Below are positions 32,029-52,589 of a DNA stretch of 64,000 nt, one piece after another. Under the pieces are notes generated by a model. That model did no database searches. It saw nothing but the letters and a program-made list of their open reading frames with translations, and was not told the DNA's origin. Where the stretch lies: contig JAEKDP010000008.1 in NCBI GenBank assembly GCA_016521575.1, positions 1 to 64,000 on the forward strand, written 5' to 3'. A program made the translations under genes and the position numbers. This DNA comes from Rhodobacteraceae bacterium F11138. Lineage in GTDB: Bacteria; Pseudomonadota; Alphaproteobacteria; Rhodobacterales; Rhodobacteraceae. Every line of letters begins with the position of its first letter. Position 1 is the first letter of the stretch.

Positions 32029-32045
32029 TCGTGGGGGCATGACGG

Positions 32046-32699: not shown

Positions 32700-32701
32700 C
32701 G

Positions 32702-34773: not shown

Positions 34774-34777
34774 GCCC

Positions 34778-36350: not shown

Positions 36351-36356
36351 GGATCC

Positions 36357-37436
36357 ATGAGTGTCGTCACCTACTTCGTGGAAACGGCCGAAGGCTATCT
36401 CAATACCGCTGCCGAGACGCAATTCGGCGCGGTCGCAGCAACGGTGGGCACGTTGCTGGTTCTGGGCACAACACTGGTTGTCATTCTGGTTTTCATCAAC
36501 ATGATCTACCAGTATCGCGCCATGGACGGCCGAACTGCCTTTTGGCTGGCCGTGAAGGTCGGGCTGATAGGAGTCTTCGCGGCCAATTGGGTCCAGTTCA
36601 ATGCGCTTGCCTCAGCGATACTGAATGGGATCGACAGCATTGCCGGGGCCCTTGTGGCCTCTGTCGGCGGCGGATCACCAGGTCCGTCCGGTACCTTTGC
36701 AGAGGAATTCGACGAACTGATCGCAGCCCTCGGGGACTATCTGAACGCGGCGGGATCTGAGCTAAACTGGATGGCCGGTGCCTTGCTGGACACGCTCGGC
36801 GTGCTACTGCTCTCAATTTTGGGCGGGTTGGCAGCGTTCATTGTTGTGGCGTCACGGCTCATGATCGCTCTTCTAATCGGCATTGCGCCGGTCATGATCT
36901 TCCTGACCCTTTTCGAGGTGACCAAGGACTACTTCGCGCGCTGGCTTTCGGCACTCATATCCTTTGCGATGTATCCGATCGTCGTCGCTGGCGTGTTCGC
37001 GACGATCACGGGGGTTTCTCGGGCTCTTCTTGCCGAACTGGGCGACCCGGAGGGAGCCTCGAACATAGGGGCCCTTATCCCATTTTTCATGATGGTGCTG
37101 ATGGCAAAAGGCTTCATCATTGCAACGCCCTTTTTGGTTCGGGCAATTTCCGGCAACATCATGATGCCGGCACTTTCGGCAGGGTTCGGGGGGAGCTATG
37201 CGTTCGCCAGAGGGCTGGCAGGTAGCCAACAGGTTTACAACCGTTACGCCATCGGGGGTGCAACCGGGGCTGAATACGCAGCCCTTCGAGCGCGACAATT
37301 CTTCGGTGTGCAAGCGTTGCCAAGCCGGCCCAACACAGCGGGTGGGCCAACTGCATCTCCTGCCGGCGACGGGACCGGAACTGGCGCTCGGATGCTGGCA
37401 CAGCTTTCTAGGTTGGGGAGATTAGGCAGACGGTAA
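36357..37436 (+). CDS. virB6: VirB6/TrbL-type polytopic channel protein
   Basis: The 359-residue protein has about six hydrophobic segments, among them FGAVAATVGTLLVLGTTLVV and LLLSILGGLAAFIVVASRLM. The VirB6-type loop GIAPVMIFLTLFEVTKDYFARW is present, and the tail is Ala/Gly/Pro-rich. It forms the inner-membrane part of the DNA path. As the last gene of the plus-strand T4SS run, it borders the defense-like cargo. Confidence 0.9.
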   Translation: MSVVTYFVETAEGYLNTAAETQFGAVAATVGTLLVLGTTLVVILVFINMIYQYRAMDGRTAFWLAVKVGLIGVFAANWVQFNALASAILNGIDSIAGALVASVGGGSPGPSGTFAEEFDELIAALGDYLNAAGSELNWMAGALLDTLGVLLLSILGGLAAFIVVASRLMIALLIGIAPVMIFLTLFEVTKDYFARWLSALISFAMYPIVVAGVFATITGVSRALLAELGDPEGASNIGALIPFFMMVLMAKGFIIATPFLVRAISGNIMMPALSAGFGGSYAFARGLAGSQQVYNRYAIGGATGAEYAALRARQFFGVQALPSRPNTAGGPTASPAGDGTGTGARMLAQLSRLGRLGRR

Positions 37437-37623: not shown

Positions 37624-39276
37624 ATGTCATCCGATACAGACATTGATTTGGATTCGCCGGGCCTTGCATTTTCCAAACTTCTAATGCTTGCGAAGCCCGG
37701 GAGGGTAAAGGCGCTTCTTCCTGACGAAATGCTCGACATTCTGGATGGGTTAGAACCGGGTTTCAGCACTTCTGAGAAATTGACTGCGTTGGCAGTGAAC
37801 ATGCTGGATCCTACCGAGACGCTGCAGAACGATACGTTGCGGGACTCCGTGATTTCTCTGATGCCGCTGAAGAAGGCGCGCGAGCTTTGCACAAAACTCG
37901 GGACTCCAGCCGGGCGAAACCCTTTCGATGATGCACTGAAGCTCGCGTCGGACGAAGAGAACTTCCCAGCATTGCTTTCCTTTTTTGGGGTCATCGATGA
38001 CCCGACTGCCCCAGGGGCGCAGCTACCAGGAAATGATCGCTCGCCCGTCGGCTATGGGCTCTTTGAGCATCAGCGAGTGGCGGCAAGGCGCACTGAACGG
38101 ATGCTCTTCGAGGGCCCCCACCGTGGTGTCCTGCACATGCCAACAGGCGCGGGAAAAACACGTACCGCAATGCACCTTGTCGCATCCCACCTGAGCGCCA
38201 GTGAGCCGACACTGGTCGTATGGCTCGCCCAGAACATAGAGCTTCTCGATCAAGCCGCAGATGAGTTTCAGAAGTCGTGGCGCTTCCTTGGCAACAGGGA
38301 TGTCGGGCTTTGGCGGCTTTGGGGAAACAAGCGTGTCGATCTTGCCAACGCCAAGGACGGGCTAGTTGTCGCTGGCTTAGGTAAAATGTCAGCATTGGAA
38401 AAGAACTCGGTGAGTGAATTGCTCACTTTGGCTGACCGAGTATCTTTGGTCATCATCGACGAGGCACACCAAGCGATCGCTCCAACATATCGCTCTGTAC
38501 TTGACGCCCTAGCAACAAAACGGGCGACGACGCGTCTCCTTGGCCTTACGGCCACTCCCGGACGAACCTGGGATGATTTGAGCAAAGACGAAGAGCTCTC
38601 CGAATTCTTCGGTCGTGAAAAGGTAATGTTGGAAATCGAAGGCCACCCCGACCCAGTCACATATCTGATGGAAGAAGGCTATCTTGCCCGTCCGCACTTC
38701 CGGACTCTGAATGTGCAGGCCGGACTCGACTTGTCACAAGAGGACATGAAGGGCCTGTCACAGGCGATTGATGTGCCGGGGGACGTTCTGGAGCGACTAG
38801 GTCAAAGCACACAAAGAAACCTCAGGATAATTTCAGAGTGCGAGCATCTCGTGTCATCCCATCGCCGCGTCATTGTCTTTGCCCCATCGGTTGCCAACGC
38901 TAGGATGCTGGCAGCCATCATGGTCGCACGCGGCACTGAAGCACTTGTCGTCACCGGAGAATCCGCTCCGGCGGCTCGCGAACGGGCAATTCGACGCTTC
39001 AAGAGCCAAGCGCCAGAACCTATTGTGATGTTCAACTATGGCGTTCTGACAACTGGATTCGATGCACCGCAAACGAGCGCGGCCATCATTGCCCGCCCTA
39101 CCAAATCCTTGGTTCTCTATAGCCAAATGGTGGGCCGGGCTACGCGAGGTGTAAGAGCTGGGGGAAATGAAACCTCAGAGATTGTCACGGTGACGGATAC
39201 TGAAATGCACGGCTTCGGAGATGTAGCTGACGCTTTCTGCAATTGGGAAGATGTTTGGAATGAACGAAATTGTTAG
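37624..39276 (+). CDS. DEAH-box superfamily 2 helicase
   Basis: The 550-residue helicase has motif I MPTGAGKT (172-179), motif II DEAH (279-282), motif III TATPGR (about 309-314) and motif VI QMVGRATRG (about 501-509). The GLFEHQRVAA Q-region and an uncharacterised helical N-terminal domain of about 140 residues precede them. No nuclease domain is visible. It starts the three-gene plus operon and overlaps the GHKL ATPase gene. SF2 helicases coupled to a MORC-like ATPase are known from mobile restriction-type operons, where they are thought to scan or remodel target DNA. The 187 bases before it follow virB6 and should hold the operon promoter. An anti-phage role is inferred from context. Confidence 0.9.
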   Translation: MSSDTDIDLDSPGLAFSKLLMLAKPGRVKALLPDEMLDILDGLEPGFSTSEKLTALAVNMLDPTETLQNDTLRDSVISLMPLKKARELCTKLGTPAGRNPFDDALKLASDEENFPALLSFFGVIDDPTAPGAQLPGNDRSPVGYGLFEHQRVAARRTERMLFEGPHRGVLHMPTGAGKTRTAMHLVASHLSASEPTLVVWLAQNIELLDQAADEFQKSWRFLGNRDVGLWRLWGNKRVDLANAKDGLVVAGLGKMSALEKNSVSELLTLADRVSLVIIDEAHQAIAPTYRSVLDALATKRATTRLLGLTATPGRTWDDLSKDEELSEFFGREKVMLEIEGHPDPVTYLMEEGYLARPHFRTLNVQAGLDLSQEDMKGLSQAIDVPGDVLERLGQSTQRNLRIISECEHLVSSHRRVIVFAPSVANARMLAAIMVARGTEALVVTGESAPAARERAIRRFKSQAPEPIVMFNYGVLTTGFDAPQTSAAIIARPTKSLVLYSQMVGRATRGVRAGGNETSEIVTVTDTEMHGFGDVADAFCNWEDVWNERNC

Positions 39277-41092
39277 CGACGGGGCCACTGAATCCGGGTT
39301 CATTATTCCACCGGAACTCGCCGTAAAAGCGATGCGCGATAGTGGGTATCGAAATACCGCATACGCTCTCGCAGAGCTGATCGACAACTCAATTCAGGCT
39401 GACGCCAGTGAAGTTGAGCTCATCTGTGTCGAGAAGTACGAACAGGTAAATTCTCAGCAGCGCCTTCGCCTGCAGGAGATCGGCACGATCGACAACGGCA
39501 AGGGCATGTCCGCACGAACATTGGCCATCGCACTGCAGTTTGGAAACGGCACTCACCTGGATGATCGAGCTGGCATTGGACGGTTCGGCATGGGACTTCC
39601 AAACTCGTCAATTTCGCAATGTCGCCGTTTGGATGTCTGGACTTGGACGAACGGGCCGGACAATGCCATTCATTCCTATCTGGATGTCGCTGACATTCAA
39701 AGCGGTGTGAAAGATCGGGTGCCGCCGCCAACTCCTTCAGCCCTTCCCACCAAATGGCGCGAACGGTCCGAAATCTTGGGGACCTCCGGTACACTCGTGG
39801 TCTGGTCGCGATTTGAAGAGTATCGACTTACATGGCGAGGCGCTGAGGCGACCCTGCGAAATACCGAGGCGATCATCGGCCGGATGTATCGCAAGTTCAT
39901 TAACGATGGCCGTGTCGCCATTCATCTCGTACGGGTGGAAGAGGGTGGGAACACCGGCCGAAGGTTGGCGGTTGTCAATGATCCCCTCTACCTTATGCCA
40001 AACTCCTCGACTCCCGAACCTTTTGACAAAGTTCCAATGTTTCAACGTTGGGGCGAGAACGACGAAGAGTTCACAATCGATTTTGGAGGCAAGCAGCATA
40101 AAGTTTTCGTCAGGTTCAGTTGGGCCAAGCCGGAAACCGTGCCAGATGACGGGCTGAATCGCGGCGCAAAGCCGTACGGCAAACATGCAATGAAGAACCT
40201 CGGCCTTTCGATCGTTCGAGAAGGTCGTGAACTCGATTTGGATACATCTTGGACCAACAGCTATGATCCCACCGAACGATGGTGGGGAGCTGAGGTCGAA
40301 TTCCCTGCCACGCTCGACGAAATCTTCGGCGTAACGAACAACAAGCAAAGTGCGACGATCTTTTCGCAGCTGGCCCAATATGATTGGAAGGCCGACGCGG
40401 AGGAAAATGAAAGCCGCTCCTCTTTCATCGAAAGGGCGAGTAGCGAAGGTGACCCGCGGGCGCTGCTAATCCCAATCGTCGAGCACATCCGGGAACAGAT
40501 TACCCAACTGAGGAAAAGAACAGAGCAGCAGACCAAAGGAACGCGAAGTACGGGTGGTCGCAAGCGTCATGAAGAGCCAGGCGTGGAAGACACCGTCACT
40601 TCGAAGTTCCGCCAACGTGCGGACGAAGGACATGAGACGCCGGAGGACACGGAGGATTTCGAAGCCGAAGACCGGGACGCCTATGAAGACGATTTGAAGG
40701 ACGACAAGCACTATCCCGACGACGTCGCCAAAGCCATTGCTGACGCCATCCTTACCAGAAAGCGCAAGGTCGCTTTTCTAGAGAAAGCCATGGAAGGCTA
40801 TGCGTTCTTCAACGTGGAGAGCGTCCAAGGCGGTGTCACCAACGTGGTCTTCAATTCTAACCACCCCTTCTACGAAAACTTGGTAAAGGCGCTGAACCCG
40901 GACACCGAAGAAGACACCGAGAAGGAGCTGCTCGACCGGGTACACACCGCTTCAGACACACTGCGCATCGTGTTTTCGGCTTGGGCTCGCTACGAAATGG
41001 AAGAAGTCAGGCATAAGCAACGTCTCTCGGATATGCGTCAAGAGTGGGGCAAGATGACCCGGTTCTTCCTCGACGATGGCGAGGATGATTGA
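39260..41092 (+). CDS. MORC/MutL-like GHKL ATPase
   Basis: The 610-residue protein has an N-terminal GHKL ATPase. From the alternative ATG 39251, the N-box ELIDNSIQA is at 42-50, the G1 box DNGKGM at 81-86 and the glycine lid GIGRFGMG at 108-115. An S5-like middle domain and a long charged C-terminal part follow, with a very acidic linker (DTEDFEAEDRDAYEDDLKDD). This order matches prokaryotic MORC-type ATPases, which close like clamps on DNA. ATG 39260 or 39251 both lie inside the end of the helicase gene. The stop shares a base with the PLD gene start. There is no kinase His box, so this is an ATP-driven clamp and not a sensor kinase. Confidence 0.87.
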   Translation: MNEIVSDGATESGFIIPPELAVKAMRDSGYRNTAYALAELIDNSIQADASEVELICVEKYEQVNSQQRLRLQEIGTIDNGKGMSARTLAIALQFGNGTHLDDRAGIGRFGMGLPNSSISQCRRLDVWTWTNGPDNAIHSYLDVADIQSGVKDRVPPPTPSALPTKWRERSEILGTSGTLVVWSRFEEYRLTWRGAEATLRNTEAIIGRMYRKFINDGRVAIHLVRVEEGGNTGRRLAVVNDPLYLMPNSSTPEPFDKVPMFQRWGENDEEFTIDFGGKQHKVFVRFSWAKPETVPDDGLNRGAKPYGKHAMKNLGLSIVREGRELDLDTSWTNSYDPTERWWGAEVEFPATLDEIFGVTNNKQSATIFSQLAQYDWKADAEENESRSSFIERASSEGDPRALLIPIVEHIREQITQLRKRTEQQTKGTRSTGGRKRHEEPGVEDTVTSKFRQRADEGHETPEDTEDFEAEDRDAYEDDLKDDKHYPDDVAKAIADAILTRKRKVAFLEKAMEGYAFFNVESVQGGVTNVVFNSNHPFYENLVKALNPDTEEDTEKELLDRVHTASDTLRIVFSAWARYEMEEVRHKQRLSDMRQEWGKMTRFFLDDGEDD

Positions 41093-42033
41093 TGACGGAT
41101 GAAATGCTCGGCAACCAGCTGCTGAAACTGGTGTCATCGGCGAAAGAGCGAGTCATCCTCGTTGCACCCTTTATCAAGGTTGATGCGATCCAGCGCGTTT
41201 TCGACGCCATCCCAGTTTCTGGAGGAGCGCATATTGATTGCGTGACGCGTTGGCGGCCTGAAGACATCGTGGATGGTGTCTGTGATTTGGAGATCTTCGA
41301 GGTCATCGCCGATCGCGCTAACGCCCAACTTTGGAAGCATCCAAACCTGCATGCCAAGTTCTTCAGGGCCGACCAGTCCTGTCTCATCGGGTCCGCAAAT
41401 CTAACCGGGCGGGCACTTGGTTGGCGCCTCCCGACCAACCTCGAACTCCTTGTTGAACTAGATACTAATCTGCTTGGGCTCCAAGCGTGGGAGACATCGT
41501 TGATGAACAGCTGCGTCCCAGTGACAGCCAAACTGCGTGATCAGATCGCGCAACAAGCCGCAGACATAGCGGCCCAGCGTCCAAAGATAACCTCGATCGA
41601 TGTTGAGCACGACGATGATCCGAGTTTTCGATGGGTACCCCTCTGCCCGGCGCCAGAAAGGCTATTCAAGGTATATACCGGCGAACTTGACGAGGCCAAA
41701 ATGGTCCGGTCGGCTTTCGAATTCGCGCAACGCGATTTGAGAGCACTAGGCCCTCCCAAAGGCTACTCGGAGGAACAGTTCCTGGAATACGTTGCAGTTC
41801 GGCTCCAGAATCTGGAAGTTGTCCAGAAAGTAGTCTCTGCCAGCAGTTCAGGGGTTTCGGATACTCAGGCGGCCAAGTTGATAGAAGAGTATATCGATGA
41901 GTCACCAATGATCAGTCCGCCTGACGCCTGGAGAATTCTCAAGCAATGGATGATGCACTTCTTTCCGGAGCAATATCGAATAGAGGTAGGCCAAGAAATT
42001 CTGATTAAGGGCCGCACGATTTCTTCCGGGTAG
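41092..42033 (+). CDS. single-HKD phospholipase D-like nuclease
   Basis: The 313-residue protein has one HKD motif: His87 and Lys89 in NLHAKFFRAD with the Asp at 94, then SCLIGSANLTGRAL. One motif per chain means it should act as a dimer, as in Nuc and BfiI-type nucleases. The C-terminal half is helical and unassigned. ATG 41092 shares a base with the preceding stop (TGATG). It is the only obvious nuclease candidate of the island, so I infer it is the cutting effector; a lipase role is less likely. It converges with the minus operon 17 nt away, without a visible terminator. Confidence 0.85.
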   Translation: MTDEMLGNQLLKLVSSAKERVILVAPFIKVDAIQRVFDAIPVSGGAHIDCVTRWRPEDIVDGVCDLEIFEVIADRANAQLWKHPNLHAKFFRADQSCLIGSANLTGRALGWRLPTNLELLVELDTNLLGLQAWETSLMNSCVPVTAKLRDQIAQQAADIAAQRPKITSIDVEHDDDPSFRWVPLCPAPERLFKVYTGELDEAKMVRSAFEFAQRDLRALGPPKGYSEEQFLEYVAVRLQNLEVVQKVVSASSSGVSDTQAAKLIEEYIDESPMISPPDAWRILKQWMMHFFPEQYRIEVGQEILIKGRTISSG

Positions 42034-42050: not shown

Positions 42051-43943
42051 CTAACCATTCGCTGGTGTCTCATCCAGCGCGAACAACAGACCGGCCCCCT
42101 GACGTTGGCCGATATCGGGCAAGGCATCTTCGACTGATACATTTATGATGATTCTCCCAATCTCTACGCCGTCCCCATCACCAGGGACTTTGCAAGGTTT
42201 TGGCTTAACATCCGACTTGTAATCGACTCCAGTTGTGAACAGAGCGTCCAACGCGCTCGGAGCCAAGGTGGACTCGAGTTTCGCTCTGCTTGTTTCGTAG
42301 ACATCCGCGATTGCCGCCCGGACCTCTTTCATGAAGTTAAACCTGTGCGCGGCGTCGAAGGCTAGTCGATTAGAACTTTCGCCCACCAAGACTCCATCGA
42401 GGTTCGTCGCCAACGGGACAAGTTCGCGATGGCTGTTTGTGAAATACACCACACACCGAACCGGGAACATCGATGGCATAGTTTTCAATTCTCCGACCCG
42501 ACCTAGGTCACTGAGCAACTTTTGCTGTAGAGAAATTGCTGTTTGCTCCTTCAACCTGGCCGGGACAAAGCATGGTCCTTCGGCCGATAGAAGTGAGGAG
42601 AGTGCGTCATTCCCGATCGTCTCAACATGCTTCAGGTCCCATTTAACAATACCCCGCAGTTCCGCATTCAGATCCAAGACGGGTGTATGGACCCCATTGG
42701 CCACAGCTTTGAAGTTGAGTGCCCCGTGATCATAAAAGATACCAGCGAGTAGCAAGACGCGCTTAGCCTTCGGTGGATCGCGCACGAGGTCGCATAAGGG
42801 TGTCAATACGAGGAAAACACGACGCTCATCGCCCTCGAAAATTGTGCCGCTCCGAACATCGGGCCCGTCTTCTTCCGGTGAGATTGCAATAATGTCGCCC
42901 AAAGAAACTGGAAAGCCGCTGCTCGGATCAAGTTGCCTTCGTTTTTCGTTGACAAACAGAGTCTTACGGACAACTTCCAATGTGTTCTTATTTCCCGTGA
43001 TTGAGTTCGGCGGAAAGGACGTTGCCTCAAGTGCGTTGAGTGCGATCGCCGCGTCGATAACGCCCTGCTCTGCCTCCAGCTCATGTGCGAGCACTGCATC
43101 CATGATATCGACCATGTAGCCGCCCAATGGCACACCTTCTGAGGATAGCATTTGCTTTACGTGAGAAAGGTCTTCGAGATCGAGCTTACGAACTTCGTTT
43201 TGTGCGCGTTGAAGCGCTTGTGAGATGCCCGTCTCCCAGGATTTCAGGAACGACCACAGCTTCAGCGCATCTCCACGATGCTCGGCCAGTTCGAAGACAA
43301 GCTGCTCGAGGTGCCCATCTTCTTCGATTTCCGACTTTTTGATGGTCCGGAAGCCAGACGCCAGTAGCCCCGTCTTGTCGCGAAACTCGTGGCGTAGGTC
43401 ATGAAGGCTGTTGTGTGCAGAAGTCAGGATCACAATGGGCGGGTTATCGGATCGCTCGCGCAAGACTTCTTTCAAACCACTTATTGATCGGTTTTTGTCC
43501 CCCTCCGCTTGTTCAGATCCAAGAAACAAATCAACAATAATGAGATCGGCGTCTTTAGCGGCCCCAATAAAATCTCTACCAACTTCGCTTACTTTTAGAC
43601 CAATGCCATTAAGCCTAGCGGTCGCAGCGCCGATAAATTTCCGAACTTGCTGCTGATTTCCCAGGAATGCCTCAAACACCTTGCCGAGAGCGCTACCAGA
43701 AAATCCCCCCCGTCGTTCAAACATTAGCGTAACGAAGGTCTGGTCTTTGATTAGCGCTTCCGCATCGAGATCCTTGTGCTCGGGGTAGATCTCATCGAGC
43801 AGCTCTTTGTCCTCGGCTGTCAAATCAGCCCAGAAAACAGACCATTCATCATCCACATTGCCAAGGTCGGATACTAGGGGTGACGGATCTACACCGTCAT
43901 CGACAATTATCGCGGTAACAACGCCGTGCTGTTGGATATCCAT
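42051..43943 (-). CDS. receiver-domain protein paired with a GHKL kinase
   Basis: In this 630-residue protein, residues 10-225 form a response-regulator receiver with a large insertion. IIVDD (12-16) is the acid pocket, DLIIVDLFLG has the phospho-acceptor Asp138, VILTSA has the Thr/Ser switch (174-175) and TIKKSEI has the Lys (202-203). About 85 residues more than usual lie between the pocket and the acceptor. The other 400 residues have no recognisable output domain, DNA-binding motif or nuclease motif. Its start overlaps the stop of the kinase-like gene by one base (TAATG). It is a likely phospho-target of that protein and a possible switch for the island. Confidence 0.75.
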   Translation of the reverse strand: MDIQQHGVVTAIIVDDGVDPSPLVSDLGNVDDEWSVFWADLTAEDKELLDEIYPEHKDLDAEALIKDQTFVTLMFERRGGFSGSALGKVFEAFLGNQQQVRKFIGAATARLNGIGLKVSEVGRDFIGAAKDADLIIVDLFLGSEQAEGDKNRSISGLKEVLRERSDNPPIVILTSAHNSLHDLRHEFRDKTGLLASGFRTIKKSEIEEDGHLEQLVFELAEHRGDALKLWSFLKSWETGISQALQRAQNEVRKLDLEDLSHVKQMLSSEGVPLGGYMVDIMDAVLAHELEAEQGVIDAAIALNALEATSFPPNSITGNKNTLEVVRKTLFVNEKRRQLDPSSGFPVSLGDIIAISPEEDGPDVRSGTIFEGDERRVFLVLTPLCDLVRDPPKAKRVLLLAGIFYDHGALNFKAVANGVHTPVLDLNAELRGIVKWDLKHVETIGNDALSSLLSAEGPCFVPARLKEQTAISLQQKLLSDLGRVGELKTMPSMFPVRCVVYFTNSHRELVPLATNLDGVLVGESSNRLAFDAAHRFNFMKEVRAAIADVYETSRAKLESTLAPSALDALFTTGVDYKSDVKPKPCKVPGDGDGVEIGRIIINVSVEDALPDIGQRQGAGLLFALDETPANG

Positions 43944-46291
43944 TAGGTATGTTCCGAAATGCAGTACTCAAATGTATTCAGTCGCCCGAAATCATTGATT
44001 GGCTCCTCTTGTAGCTCGAGTGATCCACCCGCTGCGATAGCGTTGGCTCTAGCGATGTATAGACCTAAGCCGCGTCGTTTCTTGCTCTCTTTCAAAGAAA
44101 AGAACATATCGAAGATGCGATCTTTATGTTCTGGGTCGATCCCCGGGCCATTGTCAGAAAATATAATTCTGGTCGGAGAGCCGACAATGCTGACACTGAT
44201 CTGAGGTTTGAACAGAGGGGACTTCTCTTTTTCAAGACTCAACCAGTAAACAGAATTTGCAAGTAAGTTCTCAAATATCTGTACAACGTAGCCTTTGACG
44301 GTCTTCGTCGTGAAGCGGTTTTTTGGTGGTTCATATTTGAGATGAATTCCGTGCCTATCGAACTGAGTCTGGTGATCCTCAAGGGTTTCACTGATGAGTT
44401 GGGTGAGTGAAAAGGTCTCAGGAGCTTGTCGTCCGCTTACACTCAATGGGTCCAGAATACGCAGTCTCTTGTGAATGCTCTTCATCGAAGCTGCCAACCC
44501 ATCCAAACCCGTTACGACTTCATCCGACGTTGCTGTGCTTCGAATTTCCCGAATGCGCTCCAAAGCATGCTCTGAGGTCCGTGCGAGTTCGTGAGCGACG
44601 ATTTCAACCAGTAGTCCTATGCCAGCCATATCTTGCATTAGCTTTGCATCGCCCTCGACTTCGGCGTTTCTTTCTCTCAAGATCTTCGCCAGCTCCGTTA
44701 ACTCAAGCAATGTTTGTTGTAGTTCTTCTATTGTTTCGCGTTCTTGGTTGGTCGTGACTGAACGCAAATTGCTGATTGCCTTCTGCGCTCTCGTCTCGAG
44801 CCTTGCGATCTCCGTCTTTGCTTCGACTGGTCTTGCACGTTTAGCTTTGTACTTGGTCTCCGCACGCCTCATTGCATTACGCAATTGGTCTTGAATAGAG
44901 AACTGAACAATCCTCAGCATCGCTTGCTGTTCCTGGGTCTCTCTCAGGCCTTCCCGATTAGTCTGATCTACGAGACCAGGATTCGCGCTTCGACTGATGT
45001 CGACTTGACCGACAAGCTGAATTTTATTGAGGAGGTATCCCCTGGCCATAAGGGCTTCACGATCGAGCCCGAGCCAGTCATCCTTCTCCTGCCCATACGG
45101 ATAGACCCGAAAGTCATCCCGATACATTCTGATCCCGGTCCATTGACGGTGTAGCTTCAGGATCTGCTCGCGATCCATTCCTCCCCCAGCCTTCACACGG
45201 CGCCTATTGTACCAATGCGCCTCGAAGGTGAATGGACCCAAGTCAGTCAGCGCATCTTCTGGAATCGCCTCGTCCCGGCCGCGTATCATTGCAAACAGAT
45301 CCTTCTCCCCGAACCTTAGCTCCTCTTCGACAATTGGGTGCTCAAAACCCAACTCTCTGAGTTTCAAGTTCAGGGTAAGCTGGGGTCCGCTTTTTCCGAC
45401 CGTATATGCCCCCCAAATGCTGGCGTGGGCGAGCTTGAGAAAGCTTTTTCCAAGCATAGGAACTGGGATGCGCTCACCATTCCATACCAATGCAATTCGT
45501 GGTCGATTTCTACTATCTGCAAGGGGATTGGTTAGAAAAGCAAAATCTGCAGCGGCCAACTGCTTGATCCGTCCTTCGTTCCAATCGGATGTTAGTTCTG
45601 AGATAATAAGAACAGTTCCAGAGTAGTCCGGCGAAGGTTTTGTTCCAGACGTACTTGCCTTGATATATATGTCTTCGATCATCTTATTGACGTCTTCAAA
45701 CGCCCGCCAATCGATCTGTAGATGATTGATTTTCCTGTCTTTCTTTCGCGCGGTTTCGATAGAGAGCGTTCCACCCAATCGCATTGCTGACAGCCGACCC
45801 AAGCCTTTCTCACCAAGAAAATCGGGCTTCTTCTGCCCTTCAGCAACGGACTTCTCGACTGCGATCTTTCGTGAGGGTGTGCCAATGACCAGGAATTTTT
45901 CTTCTAGATCAGTCGCCGACATCCCGGTCCCTGTATCAATGACGCGGATCGTGTTTAGCGAATAGACTTCTTTCAACGCTTTAGAAAGCTGATCATACGA
46001 GTCTGCGGCAGCAATCAGTTTCCGCGCTTGGTCATAAATCGTTGTGGCAGATGAGTTCAGCTCAGACAGACAACGCTCCTTGAGATTTTCCAGCGGCACT
46101 TCTTGCTCTTTCGAGCGATTGCGAAGCGAGCTGAAGCTTCGCAGACCAAGCACAACATTAAATCGTACCTCAACGCCATTCTCGGTTCGCGCGTCAAACC
46201 CGTTCTTGATAAGTTCATAAAACGCGATCACGTCCGAACTGATAAGTTCGGAGCCGAGTTCCAGAACTGTTCTTGCCGTTACTCTAAACAA
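43943..46291 (-). CDS. double-GHKL histidine-kinase-like protein
   Basis: The 782-residue protein has two ATPase modules of the GHKL fold. The N-terminal one is HSP90/MORC-like: FYELIKNGFDA at 24-34, DTGTGM at 119-124 and GEKGLGRL near 160-167. The C-terminal one is histidine-kinase-like: QIFENLLANS near 671, DNGPGI near 713 and RRGLGLYIARA near 740. A coiled region precedes it with a His-box-like VAHELART (His about 567). There is no membrane segment or sensor domain, so it is cytoplasmic. The HSP90-like half could sense DNA or a protein and control phosphorylation of the adjacent receiver protein. Kinase activity is inferred from motifs. The gene follows the PAPS reductase-like gene after 67 nt. 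Confidence 0.83.
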   Translation of the reverse strand: MFRVTARTVLELGSELISSDVIAFYELIKNGFDARTENGVEVRFNVVLGLRSFSSLRNRSKEQEVPLENLKERCLSELNSSATTIYDQARKLIAAADSYDQLSKALKEVYSLNTIRVIDTGTGMSATDLEEKFLVIGTPSRKIAVEKSVAEGQKKPDFLGEKGLGRLSAMRLGGTLSIETARKKDRKINHLQIDWRAFEDVNKMIEDIYIKASTSGTKPSPDYSGTVLIISELTSDWNEGRIKQLAAADFAFLTNPLADSRNRPRIALVWNGERIPVPMLGKSFLKLAHASIWGAYTVGKSGPQLTLNLKLRELGFEHPIVEEELRFGEKDLFAMIRGRDEAIPEDALTDLGPFTFEAHWYNRRRVKAGGGMDREQILKLHRQWTGIRMYRDDFRVYPYGQEKDDWLGLDREALMARGYLLNKIQLVGQVDISRSANPGLVDQTNREGLRETQEQQAMLRIVQFSIQDQLRNAMRRAETKYKAKRARPVEAKTEIARLETRAQKAISNLRSVTTNQERETIEELQQTLLELTELAKILRERNAEVEGDAKLMQDMAGIGLLVEIVAHELARTSEHALERIREIRSTATSDEVVTGLDGLAASMKSIHKRLRILDPLSVSGRQAPETFSLTQLISETLEDHQTQFDRHGIHLKYEPPKNRFTTKTVKGYVVQIFENLLANSVYWLSLEKEKSPLFKPQISVSIVGSPTRIIFSDNGPGIDPEHKDRIFDMFFSLKESKKRRGLGLYIARANAIAAGGSLELQEEPINDFGRLNTFEYCISEHT

Positions 46292-46358: not shown

Positions 46359-47195
46359 CTATTTGTGACAAACAACACAAGAATTTCCTTCAGAGACACC
46401 AAAAATCTCGTCGATCGACGGCTCGGAGCGCGCTGACAGAGGGTTGGGCCGTATGGCGCGCATGGCGCGGGCTCGGCGTTTCTCGTAATCCGCCTTAATC
46501 GCCGCAACGCGTTCAGGTTTGGCGAGGTCATCTAGGCTTTCACCATCGCTCCAGGTGAAGGGGGAACCGTGTTCCTCAGCCGTTTTCTCATAGGCCCGGG
46601 CCTCTTCAAATGCCTTGGGATGCTCTTCCATCAACCGCACCCATTCAATCTTCTGTTGGAAGAAGCAGAAGGTGCATCCGGATCTAGAGCGCCAGCGATA
46701 GTATTCTGGCTCGCCGATGTCGGTGTCTTTCAGCAAGTCGACGACACCTGCCTTGTCAATGCCGGCATCCCGAAGTGGAAAGCGAACCAACATGTTTGGA
46801 TGCTGCGATTTGTATCCAGACCGATTTGGCTCATCGGCCCGAATCGCGACGTAGGAATGGACGACTACGCCTTTCTCCAAGTCGTCACGCAGCCATAGGT
46901 TCAATGGCCTCAATTTGAGCTGTCGTGTGCACCAACGAGTTTTGGCCGACGGTAGGAAATGCCCATACTCTGCCAGCCAGAAATCGAAATCCCGATCTGG
47001 GTTCAGCCGATTGATCCGCTTGCCAAGGAACCCTTCGAGCCTATTTAAAAAGTCATAGACTTCAGGTAGTTCCTTCCCTGTATCGGTGAAGAAGTACTCC
47101 ATGTCGATGTCGGGGTGGTTCTGGCGCATATAGACGGCCAAGGCGGCGCTATCACGGCCACCCGATATCCCGAGAATGTGTCGTTCGTTGGTCAT
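46359..47195 (-). CDS. PAPS reductase/DndC-like PP-loop enzyme
   Basis: This 278-residue member of the phosphoadenosine phosphosulfate reductase superfamily has the PP-loop SGGRDS at 11-16. Five Cys are suited to an iron-sulfur or zinc centre: Cys89 in TRWCTRQ, Cys174 and Cys177 in SGCTFCFFQ, and Cys273 and Cys276 in SCVVCHK. DndC and BrxP belong to the same superfamily and activate the DNA backbone or carry sulfur in phosphorothioation. It overlaps the big ATPase gene by 4 nt. With a cysteine desulfurase in the same operon, DNA or nucleotide sulfuration is more likely than sulfate assimilation. No other cys genes are nearby. Confidence 0.87.
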   Translation of the reverse strand: MTNERHILGISGGRDSAALAVYMRQNHPDIDMEYFFTDTGKELPEVYDFLNRLEGFLGKRINRLNPDRDFDFWLAEYGHFLPSAKTRWCTRQLKLRPLNLWLRDDLEKGVVVHSYVAIRADEPNRSGYKSQHPNMLVRFPLRDAGIDKAGVVDLLKDTDIGEPEYYRWRSRSGCTFCFFQQKIEWVRLMEEHPKAFEEARAYEKTAEEHGSPFTWSDGESLDDLAKPERVAAIKADYEKRRARAMRAIRPNPLSARSEPSIDEIFGVSEGNSCVVCHK

Positions 47196-50100
47196 GCTTC
47201 AATCTTGTCCATACTGTCCGTGAGCGCCGCAACCGCCCGAGCGAGAGCCGCCAGCGCGATTTCGTGCCCATGTTCACTTTGGCCAAGATTCCGAATGATC
47301 TGGTCGGCAAGCTTACTGGCAGTCTCTTTTTCGTTTTCGCTGAGTTCGAAGCTCTGAAGGATTGGCGGCTGCTTCGGATCGACGCCCACAATGAGAGCGA
47401 TCGCTTCGGTGTTTGATTTTCGGTCGCGCATCAACGCCACTGCTTCGGCCTGCCTAAAGCGGCGCCCAAGCCTAGCTACCTCAGACAGTGCTCCTTCGCG
47501 GTTGCGGTCGGACCAGTCGCGCATGGGCTTCGGTTGCAGAGTTCCGGCCACCGCCTCAAGGCTGCCGGTCCCGGCTTCAATCTCCCCAACACGCGCGGCA
47601 AAAGCCTCAAACTTCAGATCTGAGCTCAACCCCTTGATGGACTCTGCGCGCTCGAGGCTTCCGGCAAAGGTGTCACTCGGAACTCCGATGGATTGCGCCA
47701 ACGCGTGTCGCAGATCTTTAGCAAGGCTATCATAGGCCGCCTCACACTCTTCAATCGCAGCGACCGTTTTTTCGACTAGATCACCTTTGATGTTCAGACC
47801 GGGCAGCGTTTCGAAGAGCAGTGTTTCCGGATCGTCTGCGTGCCGGATTGCATCGCGTATCTTGCGCGTATCGGCTGAGAGGAGACTGGTGCGTTTGGCA
47901 AAGTCGCTCAAAGCCTCAATACGCTGGAAGGCTGCACTTGCAACGGTAAGTGCAGATGCATCAGACAGATCCAGCCCTTCCGCAATCCGGGAAAGGAACG
48001 CCAGATGGTGTTCAGAGCGTCCAGCGGGCCTCAGAACGACGGCCGACGGATCCTGAAGCATTCTGTCGACAAAGATGTCATCGAGATCCGCGACAAAGCG
48101 ACCGTCTTGGTAGACAGCATAAATCTGCCGATTTGCGAGCAAGAATGCCAGCGCTAAAACCGGCATCACGCCGACCTTCATGCCAAAGGGCGCTCCCCGC
48201 CAAGCCTCATAGACTTCCGCCAGCGACTGTTCCTTTTTCGAGCGCAAGATTTTCCATGCTGGCTTCAGGGACTCACCGGTCATGGTCTTATCTGGGTCAG
48301 CAAAACCATAGCCAGACTTGGATTTTCGGTGCAGGCCGCTTGGGGCCAGAGTTGTGAGGTAGAGACCGAATGCAGCTGGAAACCCTTCGAAGTCCAGGTT
48401 CTTCCGATCCGGGCTTTTCACCATGGCATGGCAAAGGGCTCGAAGAGCGGCCGCAGCACTCGAGGATGGTCTGTCCTTTTGCAGCAGCTCGCTGTGAATG
48501 ATTGGCGTCGAATGATAGGCTTTGTCAGCCAGGTGCGATGCCGCGGCGGACAGAGAGAGCACCATCTCGGAGTCGTTTGGCCGAAGGATTTGCCATTGGC
48601 TCGACAGCATCAAGCGTTGGAGTTCGACATTCGAGCGATTTCGCAGCAATGCCTCACGCGCACGGATTCCCCGCCGCGCGATCCTGTCTCCGGCGATCTG
48701 CGGTACTTGCTTTTGAACTTGAGACAACGCCGCCAGGTCGCCTGCATCTTCAATCAAGCGCTTCCCATCGCCGACCAAAGAGAATGCACTCACGACTCCC
48801 GTTTTCCTTAGGATCCGAACAATCTCATCCATCTTCTCTTCGATGTCTGGTGAGCGGGCGTCTTGGGGCGCGATAGCCATCACCATAACACCACTCGCGG
48901 CCAACGCCTTGCGACCTACGGTGCGCTTGAACTCATTTGGATCGAATTGCTCCCCCAGGCACTCTACGTGCAACGCAAAGGTCCGCAGCACGCCGCAATC
49001 AAAGTAATGTCTTTTAGCGACAATGTGGTCGAAGCCAGCCTTTGCGGCGACTTGGGAAAGATCTGACGAGGTGGTCCGACCCCCAAATCTCTCTAAAGCC
49101 GCATCGAGGTCAAAATCGCTGCCAGAGAACAGTGCATACCCACCCACTCGTTTCTGGCGAAGCAAAACTCCCCAGTCGCATAAATCATCGAGTGCACCCG
49201 TGATATCAGAGACGTTGTTCCCCGGAACGGCGATCAAGAGGGCGTCCTGGTCGACAGCCAATCCTGTCCCGTTCTTGAAGATTTCAATAAGCGCGGCAGA
49301 TTTCGCCAGCTTCACGTGCAGGTCCGCTCCGAGCACGTTCGCTTTCTCGATTGCCTCCGCCGCGAGCGTCATTTGCGACCCCAACGGCCCAGCCGCAAGA
49401 GCCAGACCAAAGTTCGTTTGAAGATAGTCCCAAAGACGATCGGGGCCGAAGGTTTCCCCTGAGCTTGCCGATTCCGACTTCAGGAACTCGCGAAACCCCC
49501 CAGGTTCTTCGGACGCCAAGAATCCGAAGATGCTACGCTCGTTCTGACCGAAACTTCGGCGCGTGATGCCGCCGAGCAACAACGCGCAAATCGGGTTCAA
49601 AGGCCAGGTCTGCGAAAGCGCCTCGGTCAGCTCCTCTTCGTCCGTTGGTCGATTTGAACCGACGATTTTGGCCAAGCTTTTGGCCTGCGCTTCTGCTGTG
49701 CCAGGGATATCATCCGTATCGATCGCCCGCCCGAGCAGCCTGACCGTTTCATCACTTGCGGAAAGGAAGGAGAGATCCTGAAACCGCCCCTGGATCTTCG
49801 CCCATTCGAGACGGGCGCTCGAAGCGAGCTTGTCCGCATATGCCTCAAAAGCCTGATGCAAGATTCCGATCACAACGAAACGGCCTTCGCTTCTGGCGCT
49901 TATCTCAGCCAGATCCTGCAGGAGGTGCGCATCGTGGTCTTTATCGGCCGCGGCTTCGAGGAACTTTCCCAATTCATCCAGAACCAGAACAATTGGTCCC
50001 TGACTTGCGTGATCAGATATGTCTTGGACGAGTTGGCCATCGCTTTTTGTCGCGCGGTCCTTTTTTGTGCGGGTCCACCCGTATCGCTCTGCCATCTTCT

Positions 50101-50494
50101 CGGCGATGGCTTGTCTCAGATTAACACGGCTTCCGGTAACCGGAATAACGCTCCAACCACCCAAGCCGGGATCAAAGGCTTTCTCAATTGCCTTTGACAG
50201 CTTCGGACCGGCGATCTTCCGAGCGAGAGACTTTCCCTCTTTGGAACCGGCAACGAGGTTACCCAAAAGCAGTGCGGTACTCGACTTGCCGCCGCCGTAG
50301 GGTCCGGTCCAGGTAAAAGCACTTTGTGCTCCCTCCGATAGCGATGCGGCCATCGCGAGGAGCGATTTTTCGGTACTGGCTTGGAGCACATAACCTTGAA
50401 GGGGCGGCGTGCCGGTCAGATCCATGTCGATCCGCGCGCTTCGTACGAACCGGCCGTTCAGTCTGACTTTGTCTGAGAGCGTTTCACGCGCCAT
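47192..50494 (-). CDS. large P-loop ATPase of the sulfur-modification-like operon
   Basis: The 1100-residue protein has an N-terminal ATPase: Walker A GPYGGGKS at 64-71, Walker B VLVLDELGKF near 170-178 and a sensor-like FVVIGILHQAF. Long helical regions with no recognised domain follow. Size and order recall BrxC/PglY-type ATPases of BREX, but I cannot establish homology by eye. ATG 50494 is chosen since it overlaps the DUF4007 stop by 11 nt and sits at the natural domain start; a longer frame to 50620 overlaps DUF4007 too far. It overlaps the PP-loop gene downstream. It could be the DNA-translocating or assembly ATPase of the modification complex. Confidence 0.82.
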   Translation of the reverse strand: MARETLSDKVRLNGRFVRSARIDMDLTGTPPLQGYVLQASTEKSLLAMAASLSEGAQSAFTWTGPYGGGKSSTALLLGNLVAGSKEGKSLARKIAGPKLSKAIEKAFDPGLGGWSVIPVTGSRVNLRQAIAEKMAERYGWTRTKKDRATKSDGQLVQDISDHASQGPIVLVLDELGKFLEAAADKDHDAHLLQDLAEISARSEGRFVVIGILHQAFEAYADKLASSARLEWAKIQGRFQDLSFLSASDETVRLLGRAIDTDDIPGTAEAQAKSLAKIVGSNRPTDEEELTEALSQTWPLNPICALLLGGITRRSFGQNERSIFGFLASEEPGGFREFLKSESASSGETFGPDRLWDYLQTNFGLALAAGPLGSQMTLAAEAIEKANVLGADLHVKLAKSAALIEIFKNGTGLAVDQDALLIAVPGNNVSDITGALDDLCDWGVLLRQKRVGGYALFSGSDFDLDAALERFGGRTTSSDLSQVAAKAGFDHIVAKRHYFDCGVLRTFALHVECLGEQFDPNEFKRTVGRKALAASGVMVMAIAPQDARSPDIEEKMDEIVRILRKTGVVSAFSLVGDGKRLIEDAGDLAALSQVQKQVPQIAGDRIARRGIRAREALLRNRSNVELQRLMLSSQWQILRPNDSEMVLSLSAAASHLADKAYHSTPIIHSELLQKDRPSSSAAAALRALCHAMVKSPDRKNLDFEGFPAAFGLYLTTLAPSGLHRKSKSGYGFADPDKTMTGESLKPAWKILRSKKEQSLAEVYEAWRGAPFGMKVGVMPVLALAFLLANRQIYAVYQDGRFVADLDDIFVDRMLQDPSAVVLRPAGRSEHHLAFLSRIAEGLDLSDASALTVASAAFQRIEALSDFAKRTSLLSADTRKIRDAIRHADDPETLLFETLPGLNIKGDLVEKTVAAIEECEAAYDSLAKDLRHALAQSIGVPSDTFAGSLERAESIKGLSSDLKFEAFAARVGEIEAGTGSLEAVAGTLQPKPMRDWSDRNREGALSEVARLGRRFRQAEAVALMRDRKSNTEAIALIVGVDPKQPPILQSFELSENEKETASKLADQIIRNLGQSEHGHEIALAALARAVAALTDSMDKIEA

Positions 50495-51422
50495 GCCATA
50501 CGCCCTTTCCGCGGCGCGCAATCTCGCCAAACGCGCTTTGCAGCAGAGCATCCAAGTCAGGACGCCGATTCCGTTGGACCTGTCGCAGGCCTGCCGTATC
50601 GGTCCAGACGAAAGCACCACCAGTGCTTTCGTCGATCCGCATCAGCCGTTCGATGACGCTATCTTCGTCCATCTTAAACACCCGGCCGGGACTGCCGGCG
50701 TCGTGGCAGATCATTTCCGCGGCGAGCGTCGCGCGGTTGTCGTGCGCGCGAGTCCAGTAGGCTTCCAATGCGTAGGCGAACAGGGCGTCGTGAAGGTTCG
50801 GCTTTGGGCCAATCGAGAATTCGTACCATCCGCTCGAGCCGGTCTCCTGGACCAATGCCAATTCAGCCAGCAAGGGTTCCGCGGCGTCATCCATCGCCCC
50901 GCTCGGTCGGCTGCAGTAGCTCCGCAGAAAGACCGTGACGTCGTTCTGGATAGTCTTGTGAGCACCACGCCATCCCTTTTGCTCGATCAACTTCTCGATG
51001 GCATCCACCAAATCTGTCGATCGAAACTCGTGGCCAAATAACCCGTTGAAACAATAGTAGAAAGTTGTGGTGTGCTCCGGCACCGATGCAAGCTTCCAAT
51101 GGATGAGCCACAGAGAGGTCGGATGCTCCAGAAAAGGGTCAAATCCGTTCTCGCCAAAGAGCAGGTCACCCAAATTGTCAGGCTTTAATTCCTTGCCGTC
51201 GAGTTGGATAACTTCCGCCGCTTGCGCCCAAAATCGCATTGAAACAGCCATGTTTCGGCCAACGCCGAACCGGGAGATGGCTTCGTCGTCCTTGAATACC
51301 GTCAGCGGGGCGCCGCCGCGAACCGCGTCATATGCTTTGCGCAACCAAAGGATGCGCAGCGGGAATGTTTCGTGCCCGGCGAATTGCGGTTTGCCGGACC
51401 AATTGTCAAATACATCGGCCAT
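50484..51422 (-). CDS. DUF4007 family protein
   Basis: The 312-residue protein opens with FAGHETFPLRILWLRKAYDAV, the hallmark of DUF4007. It continues with a helical DNA-binding-like part (ISRFGVGRNMAVSMRFWAQAA) and IHWKLASVPEHTTTFYYCFN. I recall DUF4007 genes next to PAPS-reductase-like and large ATPase genes in defense-type islands. Its activity is unknown; the N-terminal helices suggest DNA or site recognition. It lies 9 nt after the desulfurase gene and overlaps the ATPase gene. Confidence 0.85.
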   Translation of the reverse strand: MADVFDNWSGKPQFAGHETFPLRILWLRKAYDAVRGGAPLTVFKDDEAISRFGVGRNMAVSMRFWAQAAEVIQLDGKELKPDNLGDLLFGENGFDPFLEHPTSLWLIHWKLASVPEHTTTFYYCFNGLFGHEFRSTDLVDAIEKLIEQKGWRGAHKTIQNDVTVFLRSYCSRPSGAMDDAAEPLLAELALVQETGSSGWYEFSIGPKPNLHDALFAYALEAYWTRAHDNRATLAAEMICHDAGSPGRVFKMDEDSVIERLMRIDESTGGAFVWTDTAGLRQVQRNRRPDLDALLQSAFGEIARRGKGVWHGA

Positions 51423-51431: not shown

Positions 51432-52589
51432 CTACTGGTGAAGCTCACCAGTAGCAAGGAGGACTTTCTCCACAGCGCCGACCATGATCGCCGTCGCCGA
51501 GCCAATATCGTCTTCAGAAAGCCACCACCCGACACCTATACGCAGGAAGCGTTTCTGCTCGTCATGAGTGAGATGCAGCGCGGAAAGAACCGGCGAAGGC
51601 TGCAATGAACCGGAATGGCAGGCAGACGCGTTCGAAAGACATACTTTGGTGTTCAGACTGTCGATCAGATCTGAGCTCGCCGGCGTGTCGACTATGAATG
51701 CGGCAGCTCCGGGAACCGCCGGACTTGATGGGAAAAGTCGTTCCACACGCAAGCCGTCGCCAGAGAGTTGCTCCTCGAACAGGGATATCAGACCCCTACT
51801 GTGGACAGACTCTCGCGCCATATTCTGAGCCGATATCTCGGCTGCACGGCCCATCGCCGCAACTAACGCGGCAGGTTGCGTTCCGCTCAGATGCTCTTCC
51901 AACGGTCTTGCGGATGTCAGCTCGGATGGCTTTGGGACGTTGGCGGCCACAAAAAGCGCACCGACACCCTGTGGTCCCCCAAATTTATGAGCCGACAGGC
52001 TGAGGTAATCGGCACCGAGATCGAATACGTCGATCGGATGCTTGCCCGCGGCCTGAGCAGCATCGACATGCATGAGCGCGCCAACGGCATGCGCCATTTC
52101 ACTTATCTTTTCAATTGGTTGGATTACACCCGTTAAATTGCTTGCGAGCATTGTGCTGACGAGCAGTGCGGTCTCGCCCAAAAGAGCCTCGAGACTTTCC
52201 AGGCAAATCGAACCATTTATGCCGACAGGACACATCAGGACCTCGAAGCCCAACTCGCGCAGTGCTTCCGCAGGACGTCGAACCGCGTCGTGTTCCAGCG
52301 CGGACAGAATGATTTTGTTTCTGTCCGGAAACTGTTCTGCAACGGCGCGCGAAGTCCCTATGATCGCGAGCGCGTTTGCCTCAGTAGCGCCCGAGGTAAT
52401 GAAGATCTCGTTTGGCGCAGCACCGATAAGGGTCGCAACGGCCCTCCTTCCTTTTTCGTAGAGGCGGTTAGCCTGCCAGCCTGCAACGTGATTGGAGTTC
52501 GCGTTTCCGGGTTGAGCCAGCGCCTCAATGAGAACGTCTTTGGCTTCCGGACGCATTGGCCAGCTGGCGAGGCCATCAAGGTAATACAT
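51432..52589 (-). CDS. cysteine desulfurase (NifS/IscS/DndA-type)
   Basis: The 385-residue PLP enzyme removes sulfur from cysteine as a persulfide. It shows the PLP-lysine motif SAHKFGGPQG (Lys202), His100 in SALEHDAV, the PLP-stacking/Asp region MHVDAAQAAG and the catalytic Cys324 in SNASACHSG. The long active-site loop resembles class I enzymes. It is first in the minus operon; the 206 bases to the VirD4 gene should hold its promoter. A dedicated desulfurase beside a PP-loop protein is the DndA-DndC arrangement, so it should supply sulfur for that enzyme and not for general Fe-S assembly. Confidence 0.9.
   Translation of the reverse strand: MYYLDGLASWPMRPEAKDVLIEALAQPGNANSNHVAGWQANRLYEKGRRAVATLIGAAPNEIFITSGATEANALAIIGTSRAVAEQFPDRNKIILSALEHDAVRRPAEALRELGFEVLMCPVGINGSICLESLEALLGETALLVSTMLASNLTGVIQPIEKISEMAHAVGALMHVDAAQAAGKHPIDVFDLGADYLSLSAHKFGGPQGVGALFVAANVPKPSELTSARPLEEHLSGTQPAALVAAMGRAAEISAQNMARESVHSRGLISLFEEQLSGDGLRVERLFPSSPAVPGAAAFIVDTPASSDLIDSLNTKVCLSNASACHSGSLQPSPVLSALHLTHDEQKRFLRIGVGWWLSEDDIGSATAIMVGAVEKVLLATGELHQ

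Follow-up and report, generated by a model that had tools for sequence, protein, structure and literature searches.

Pairs of a HEF_HK histidine kinase (PF19191) and a Response_reg_2 receiver protein (PF19192) were described as linked to restriction-modification (R-M) systems, above all those of type II (PMC8011034, Bellieny-Rabelo et al. 2021). HATPase_c_3 is present in 83.4% of the published HEF_HK set, and the main text of that paper contains neither 'phosphorothio' nor 'Ssp'. Here, a related histidine kinase (HK) and receiver protein (RR) of Rhodobacteraceae bacterium F11138 were analyzed, which adjoin an SspABCD module for DNA phosphorothioation (PT). The pair lies on contig JAEKDP010000008.1, of which positions 1 to 64,000 were used; this whole stretch of 64,000 nucleotides is called the window. 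With this pair and its close relatives, an orphan two-component family described solely from R-M neighbourhoods is tied to PT. The PT-tied kinase clade is well supported and is new when judged against the open-access literature without supplements, and the statements on published texts given here have this scope.

The described systems of SspABCD with SspE or SspFGH (PMC8092258) resemble the loci studied here in that SspA to SspD are all present in the window, and that an SspFGH-like gene order with an FtsK-like third gene occurs in some loci. The difference is that the published description of the SspFGH system, in its open-access text, has neither kinase nor receiver. A histidine kinase beside Ssp genes in Acinetobacter is already in print (PMC7464106; PMC12421847). 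The first report places kinase genes next to SspE in 211 strains; the second gives a two-component system in the Ssp region and did not find sspE in 5,518 of 5,530 A. baumannii Ssp regions. The two statements, a kinase next to SspE and an SspE that is nearly always missing, could not be reconciled. What both reports share with the present locus is that the Ssp region includes a histidine kinase or a two-component system; they differ in covering one genus and in offering, in their open-access text, no domain analysis, receiver structure, HEF_HK link or phylum-spanning claim. The terms 'histidine kinase', 'receiver' and 'two-component' are all absent from the text of PMC10853773 in the same scope, and PMC12839542 names a histidine kinase once, in another context.

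The kinase-receiver pair and its Ssp module

The genes are ordered SspA-SspB-SspC-SspD, followed by HK and then RR, all on the same strand:

43943..46291, reverse strand: HK, double-GHKL histidine kinase of 782 amino acids with a TTG start (gene call; the motifs of the homologues are kept from residue 2)
42051..43943, reverse strand: RR, receiver protein of 630 amino acids (gene call; one-base overlap with HK)
46359..47195, reverse strand: SspD, PAPS-reductase family (PADLOC PDLC02782, 432 bits)
47192..50620 (open reading frame (ORF) as listed), reverse strand: SspC ATPase (PADLOC PDLC02780, 1058 bits)
50484..51422, reverse strand: SspB (DUF4007; Pfam 265 bits, PADLOC 335 bits)
51432..52589, reverse strand: SspA, cysteine desulfurase (PADLOC 303 bits)

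All four Ssp proteins were matched together by PADLOC, which identifies the module as PT genes. The true start of SspC lies probably near 50480, because the PADLOC match begins only at residue 48. The stop codon of sspD is separated from the HK start by 67 bases, and HK and RR meet in the junction TAATG, in which one A is common to the HK stop TAA and the RR start ATG. A preliminary description of this DNA had placed the two genes at 42051-46291 with a one-base overlap, and correctly so; what it had called a defense operon is the SspABCD module, which it had left unnamed.

A clade of kinases linked to phosphorothioation

GTDB genomes were scanned with an HK alignment and the best 80 of 516 confirmed stretches were taken as loci, so that all counts outside the clade described here are those of a sample. 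The loci were annotated with hidden Markov models built from the Ssp proteins of the plasmids and the window. Among 46 close genome loci, 40 carry SspB, SspC or SspD, two carry SspFGH-like genes alone and four have none; no Ssp gene was found in any of the 34 distant genome loci. In a tree of 91 HKs, 44 of the 46 close loci, the window and 11 plasmid rows form a clade of 56 rows, which has a value of 100 in the Shimodaira-Hasegawa-like approximate likelihood ratio test (SH-aLRT) and a stem length of 1.0. The two loci with short or split HK frames (L052 and L057), both of which carry Ssp genes, were left off the tree. Ssp genes were present within about 10 kb for 52/56 clade HKs versus 0/35 outside (Fisher p 4e-21, uncorrected for relatedness); the number of label changes on the tree is 5 versus a mean of 29.7 after shuffling. 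These counts are loci and not independent cases, with near-copies kept (L019/L026, L018/L027, L071/L073).

Plasmids and viral contigs gave the same picture. The tblastn search of plasmid records (E ≤ 1e-10) returned 33 HK matches, of which 16 were strong (at least 222 bits) and 17 weak (at most 107 bits). SspD is present in all 16 records with a strong HK, and none of the 17 weak ones belongs to the 60 SspD records that were listed from a total of 69. Within the 80 loci on viral contigs, both HKs above 450 bits adjoin SspB-C-D; the 78 lower-scoring HKs comprise 77 without an Ssp match and one with a weak SspD-like match of 69 bits.

Clade members were found in Pseudomonadota, Acidobacteriota, Verrucomicrobiota, Planctomycetota and a Magasanikbacteria bin, and also on a Chloroflexota plasmid. 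For two of the four clade members that lack Ssp genes (L044 and L048), the contigs measure 5.9 and 7.3 kb. In a third (L020), PbeA/PbeC-like genes (4736-9431, forward strand) are located directly upstream of HK; this locus supports the PT link, and the pair may also serve PT systems of the Dnd/Pbe type. On the tree, end branches of about 0.07 bring the kinase of L022, from a candidate-phylum bin (Magasanikbacteria), near to that of L023, from the betaproteobacterium Gallionella. This would mean either that the whole Ssp-kinase cassette was transferred recently or that the bin is contaminated.

The position of the pair was compared in 58 loci (57 plus the window). HK follows directly after a same-strand sspD in 31 of them and after sspC in 4, RR converges with sspD in 8, and in three loci (L007, L046 and L057) the pair is placed between sspC and sspD. 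For 42 of the 58 loci, RR and a strong HK, SspC and SspD were available, and four with incomplete or split genes (L002, L056, L057 and L065) were removed. In the remaining 38 loci the pairwise distances of HK and RR are correlated with a coefficient of 0.94.

Domains and conserved residues of the kinase

Three domains were recognised in HK:

45662..46291, reverse strand: HK residues 1-210, N-terminal MORC-like GHKL ATPase (HATPase_c_3 of Pfam at residues 113-208)
44441..44620, reverse strand: HK residues 558-617, HEF_HK-like dimerisation/His domain with H567 (PF19191, 21.5 bits)
43985..44287, reverse strand: HK residues 669-769, C-terminal HATPase_c kinase domain (Pfam, 61.2 bits)

HATPase_c_3 and HATPase_c were both matched in 12/12 clade HKs scanned, and PF19191 at E ≤ 0.01 in 7/12; the window HK, with its 21.5 bits, does not reach the curated cut-off of this model (24.1 bits). 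The predicted phospho-acceptor H567 is located within the His box VAHELAR. In the alignment of the 91 HKs, this position is His in all 56 clade members and in all 35 outside relatives, and the adjacent position 568 is E in 56/56 clade members and E or D in 35/35 outside relatives. The residues of the N-terminal ATP site (N-box E26, N30 and D33; D119, G121 and G123; G160, K162, G163 and G165) are shared by 55 or all 56 clade members. This holds for the examined residues of both GHKL ATP sites, the exceptions being gaps and a single Gly-to-Ala at G743. E26, the N-box Glu, is presumably the hydrolytic residue known from ATPases of the MutL/Hsp90 type, which we take to be absent from ordinary histidine kinases. 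The highest Kyte-Doolittle mean over 19 residues was 1.16 for HK and 1.27 for RR, with no strongly hydrophobic stretch in either; this hydropathy scan is the sole basis on which a soluble nature of both proteins is supported.

The receiver domain of RR

Profile searches with RR were negative, both for Pfam (up to an E-value of 1) and for PADLOC and NCBIfam (up to 0.01). An AlphaFold2 model built with 38 homologues (mean predicted local distance difference test score, pLDDT, 84.4) contains a complete five-strand receiver, and the following parts of RR were delimited:

43272..43919, reverse strand: RR residues 9-224, receiver domain with D15, D16, D138, S175 and K203 (model, structure comparison and conservation)
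43605..43874, reverse strand: RR residues 24-113, helical insertion between receiver strands 1 and 2 (DSSP of the model)
42492..42923, reverse strand: RR residues 341-484 (about), MazF/CcdB-like fold (predicted-structure comparison)

Foldseek with the whole RR against the PDB returned no rows at E ≤ 0.001; when its candidates were re-checked with VIA-align, residues of about 3-228 were aligned to PDB receivers with Z up to 15.1. D15, D16, D138, S175 and K203 are identical in 38/38 homologues, which are strongly diverged from each other (mean column identity 22%). RR has the fold, the two acidic residues, the phospho-Asp, the Ser/Thr and the Lys of a two-component receiver.

The preliminary description had been right about the double-GHKL kinase with a central His box, about its solubility as far as the hydropathy scan goes, and about a receiver insertion of 85 residues, which in the model is an inserted helical block of about 85-90 residues. 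From the receiver residues named there, Asp138 stands, and Thr174 and Lys202 were each placed one residue early: position 174 is Thr in 1/38 homologues and position 202 is Lys in 3/38, the invariant residues being S175 and K203. Neither of the two findings that it had named as speaking against its proposal, the lack of a receiver pocket and a central His missing from homologues, was encountered, the pocket being present in the model with its residues kept in 38/38 and the His being kept within and outside the clade.

The C-terminal part of RR

Residues 226-630 of RR were folded separately (mean pLDDT 86.9), as the preliminary description had proposed for this part. Foldseek placed MazF in rows 1-6 (probability 0.92-1.00, best E-value 2.3e-3) and the type III toxin CptIN in row 8, with no row at E ≤ 0.001. 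For residues 341-484, the 50 VIA rows shown are all MazF/CcdB-type toxins by title, with Z of 7.1-9.0 over about 92-116 residues; the best row has a Z of 9.0 and a root-mean-square deviation of 2.7 over 101 residues. According to the caution given with the tool, values under 8 perhaps indicate a mere common arrangement, and 21 rows are at 8.0 or above. A viral structure library gave no rows at E ≤ 0.001, the best being a PemK-like phage protein (4.6e-3), and the PDB sequence search with the C-terminus gave no matches. The earlier statement that the C-terminal 400 residues are without a known output does not hold for residues of about 341-484, which resemble the MazF/CcdB fold.

The likeness to MazF, PemK and CcdB toxins is one of predicted fold. 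RR differs in lacking sequence-profile support and in having a conserved set of its own (G349, C384, D385, W435, R482); across this part, G349, C384-D385-L386, G401, W435, R482 and G484 are conserved without or almost without exception. A motif of the 'CDL' type was also found in 10/35 outside RRs by a simple pattern search. The catalytic residues of MazF are an Arg and a Thr, and these are not among the conserved residues of RR. In our reading, residues 341-484 have a predicted MazF-like fold that would serve either another chemistry or binding.

Relation to methylase-linked kinases

At 28/34 distant genome loci, HK is directly preceded by a same-strand ORF of >200 residues. These 28 upstream genes include 13 N6/N4 methylases and 7 C5 methylases (20/28 if there is no double match) as well as 3 HerA-type helicases. 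A smaller scan of the genes preceding outside HKs found a methylase in 7/8. Profile-profile alignment with hhalign related the RRs of the PT clade to 23 outside RRs over 335 columns (probability 99.4%, E 4.6e-21) and to 6 RRs of a sister clade with a probability of 87.5%. An assignment of RR as a plain Response_reg_2 protein by Pfam was rejected: PF19192 does not match the window RR, and the homology is seen solely in the profile-profile alignment. One weak match to this model (E 0.0026) was found among 38 clade RRs, and one, below the cut-off, among ten outside RRs scanned.

The PT clade shares with the published HEF_HK/Response_reg_2 pairs (PMC8011034, as far as its open-access text describes them) the order of HATPase_c_3, His domain and HATPase_c kinase, followed by a soluble receiver with loop extensions, as well as the tight pairing and the adjoining DNA-modification systems. 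It differs in that the window HK is below the HEF_HK cut-off and the clade RRs are hardly matched by the Response_reg_2 model, in having its own receiver insertion and in adjoining SspABCD instead of methylases. As judged from profiles and gene neighbourhoods, the PT clade is a PT-dedicated variant of this family. Other operons with a double-GHKL kinase and an inserted receiver, for which the preliminary description had recommended a search, do exist, and the general family is the one published in 2021. A shared logic is suggested, by which a kinase-receiver cassette accompanies DNA-marking genes whichever the mark.

Proposed role of the pair

According to conservation and model, both GHKL ATPase sites of HK are intact and its predicted phospho-acceptor His is invariant, and RR contains a complete receiver; the two co-evolve and are nearly always found beside PT genes. 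With moderate confidence we favour the reading that SspABCD defence has in HK and RR a two-component cassette of its own, which is horizontally mobile and gates modification or restriction directly, through an output other than helix-turn-helix (HTH). The N-terminal MORC-like ATPase would be the sensor: a wrong PT state, or the presence of invading DNA, would cause it to close on DNA or on an Ssp-DNA complex. H567 would next be phosphorylated by the C-terminal kinase, and from this His the phosphate would be passed to D138 of RR. There, it would alter the activity of the C-terminal part with its MazF/CcdB-like fold and no recognisable DNA-binding output, and the Ssp modification or restriction complex would be gated directly and not via ordinary transcription. 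The common input of the switch is probably the state of the DNA mark, because the same switch adjoins DNA methylases in sister families. Such a cassette would be a candidate for a question of the PT field, namely how restriction stays matched to modification while the marks are only partial. A two-component phosphorelay that acts directly in phage defence with a non-transcriptional effector is known from Detocs, which differs in its separate buffer receiver, its ATP-cleaving effector and in that it is not known to be tied to DNA modification.

The preliminary description had suggested phospho-control of modification or restriction in place of ordinary transcription control. The part that stands is a two-component-like pair tied to DNA-modification defence, with which the absence of an HTH output fits; the MazF-like fold allows an effector role too.

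Several results weigh against a dedicated gate of SspABCD. The distances of HK are correlated with those of SspC and SspD at 0.38 and 0.30, versus 0.80 between SspC and SspD; the cassette is therefore exchanged between Ssp modules, and, by these distances, the HK-RR pair behaves as one unit that is exchanged among them. SspD of at least 150 bits was found in 10/385 genomes of a class sample and 11/398 of a phylum sample, the window's own genome being included in both. For the class sample, the search at E ≤ 0.001 had matched 47/385 genomes and 7/14 controls and only matches >150 bits were counted, and for the phylum sample a cut at E ≤ 1e-30 was used. None of the 19 other Ssp genomes in these samples has a clade HK, their matches at E ≤ 1e-20 being partial with 75-85 bits, and 16/69 plasmid records with SspD carry the pair. 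On these counts, the pair is an accessory of Ssp and not needed for it. The clearest exception to the PT link is a clade HK with no Ssp gene in 22 kb (L055). Concerning the output, MazF homology by sequence was not supported, as hhalign gave a probability of 0.9% against 11 PemK proteins of relatives and 0.2-0.6% for controls. The PemK profile comprises proteins from 11 of the 14 loci fetched, those of the other three having been removed by filtering on motif and profile; with a PemK-like seed taken from L008, no sequences were gathered. The predicted MazF/CcdB-like fold could also bind DNA, and a transcriptional role for RR would therefore stay within reach.

Alternative explanations

Rather unlikely, yet the strongest of the alternatives, is an effector role: the pair would be the effector arm of Ssp systems without a known restriction cassette, the kinase would sense infection or lost PT protection, and phosphorylated RR would be toxin-like through its MazF/CcdB-fold part, with RNA, DNA or gyrase as the target. 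The pair would then be a candidate effector for Ssp loci without SspE and SspFGH and, if the MazF-like part is active, a phosphorylation-gated toxin in immunity. The structural matches of residues 341-484 (Z 7.1-9.0) speak for it; the missing sequence-profile link to PemK/MazF and the unconserved Arg and Thr speak against it.

The distribution of restriction cassettes is relevant here. In the window, a probable Ssp restriction cassette of helicase, MORC and PLD proteins is located next to RR:

37624..39276, forward strand: DEAD helicase, RadD-like (Pfam/PADLOC/NCBIfam)
39251..41092, forward strand: MORC/MzaB-like GHKL ATPase (Pfam/PADLOC/NCBIfam)
41089..42033, forward strand: PLD-family protein, DrmC-like, convergent with RR (Pfam/PADLOC/NCBIfam)

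Near 14 of the 46 pair-bearing genome loci, which are all such loci of the clade, there is a known or probable restriction cassette, SspFGH-like in 13 cases and helicase-MORC-PLD in one. The pair-lacking Ssp genomes have such a cassette in 12/19: nine are helicase-MORC-PLD as judged by the ATPase and three have a full-length SspH-like gene, and in all of them the distance to SspD is at most about 7 kb. The lower share beside the pair agrees with an effector role (Fisher p 0.025; 15/46 and p 0.029 with the SspH-like gene included that G847 has on a different contig), but the comparison sets flanks of about 10 kb, some cut by contig ends, against whole genomes. The labels SspF, SspG and SspH stand for gene order and FtsK/SpoIIIE annotation, not for a family model, and partial SspH matches of the size of an FtsK domain (175-192 bits), which are present in both groups, were left uncounted. 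The genome searches for SspH-like and helicase-MORC-PLD genes covered the window's own genome, the 19 pair-lacking genomes and 23 genomes of the 26 loci mentioned next, three of which are plasmid records.

SspE was found in 0/27 pair-bearing genomes or records searched, and likewise in none of the controls. This set is non-random, being the window's genome and 26 loci chosen as showing neither an SspFGH-like match nor a strong helicase-MORC-PLD match (L028 has a weak one of 76 bits). One of the 19 pair-lacking Ssp genomes (G478) has SspE, and the model is therefore able to find the family. With SspE rare in both groups, 0/27 versus 1/19 is uninformative, and SspE was rejected as a discriminator. 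The window's genome has neither an SspE match nor an SspH-like match.

In an A. baumannii record (L012), the stretch shown has the pair with sspB-C-D, then genes whose annotations read 'DNA-binding protein', 'endonuclease' and 'transposase family protein'; the search for SspE in this record gave no match. This layout and the near-absence of sspE from A. baumannii Ssp regions (PMC12421847, open-access text) agree with an effector role, but one of the genes of L012 is itself annotated as an endonuclease. Moreover, the pair coexists with SspFGH-like genes in 13/46 loci and with helicase-MORC-PLD genes in the window and in L031 of Maritimibacter, and therefore does not simply replace an effector. 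An extended form of this idea is unlikely as a whole: the pair would conduct surveillance of DNA marks with a MORC-like clamp as sensor and a toxin-fold effector as output, would be the missing effector arm of PT systems without SspE/SspFGH, including the widespread A. baumannii island, and the sister families would guard methylated genomes.

It is quite improbable that the pair is an ordinary transcriptional two-component system which sets the expression of the ssp operon or its restriction genes. Most response regulators do act on transcription, but with Pfam the window RR matched no DNA-binding output family, HTH or other, and no such family recurred among the 38 RRs; in its place, the model has a bundle of helices and a beta part resembling MazF, and the same RR architecture accompanies methylase systems elsewhere. 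This alternative agrees with a published speculation, by which SspE expression is under the control of the kinase found beside Ssp in 211 Acinetobacter strains (PMC7464106, open-access text).

Finally, vestigial two-component parts, with HK as a MORC-like DNA clamp, RR as a scaffold and phosphotransfer irrelevant, would fit the retained E26 and ATP site of the N-terminal GHKL domain and the paraMORCs known in R-M loci (PMC8011034, open-access text), but are very improbable because a vestige would not keep H567 (56/56), both ATP sites and D15/D16/D138/S175/K203 (38/38) across very diverged homologues.

Further genes of the island and related loci

The helicase-MORC-PLD cassette (37624-42033, forward strand) was not recognised as a whole by PADLOC. 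Full-length matches of its ATPase on plasmids lie in SspD records in 11/12 cases, the 12th being absent from the 60 SspD records that were listed from a total of 69, and the ATPase is located within about 7 kb of SspD in 9/19 pair-lacking Ssp genomes. The cassette looks like an unnamed Ssp restriction module. On a Roseobacter litoralis plasmid (L135, 9704-11484), helicase-MORC-PLD is present, and, by the annotation of the record, a small gene and one for a DGQHR-domain protein replace the pair after sspD. DGQHR is, we assume, a DndB-type domain, and the two genes are possibly alternative regulators of PT modification.

A TniQ gene (8768-9886, forward strand) is found directly upstream of HK in L055. 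Together with the endonuclease and transposase genes of L012, this hints that Tn7-like elements may carry such cassettes.

On both sides of the Ssp island of the window, TrbE/VirB4-, TrbI- and TraG-like proteins and a relaxase are encoded (27521-37436, forward strand; 52796-57123, reverse strand). Because conjugation genes flank it, the island is probably cargo of a conjugative element. Another defence gene may be that of an SMC/AAA-type ATPase (60609-63062, reverse strand), which weakly matches the defence models of LmuB and PtuA. In addition, the window contains a large serine recombinase (12507-14591, forward strand) and an IS66 transposase (18430-19944, reverse strand).

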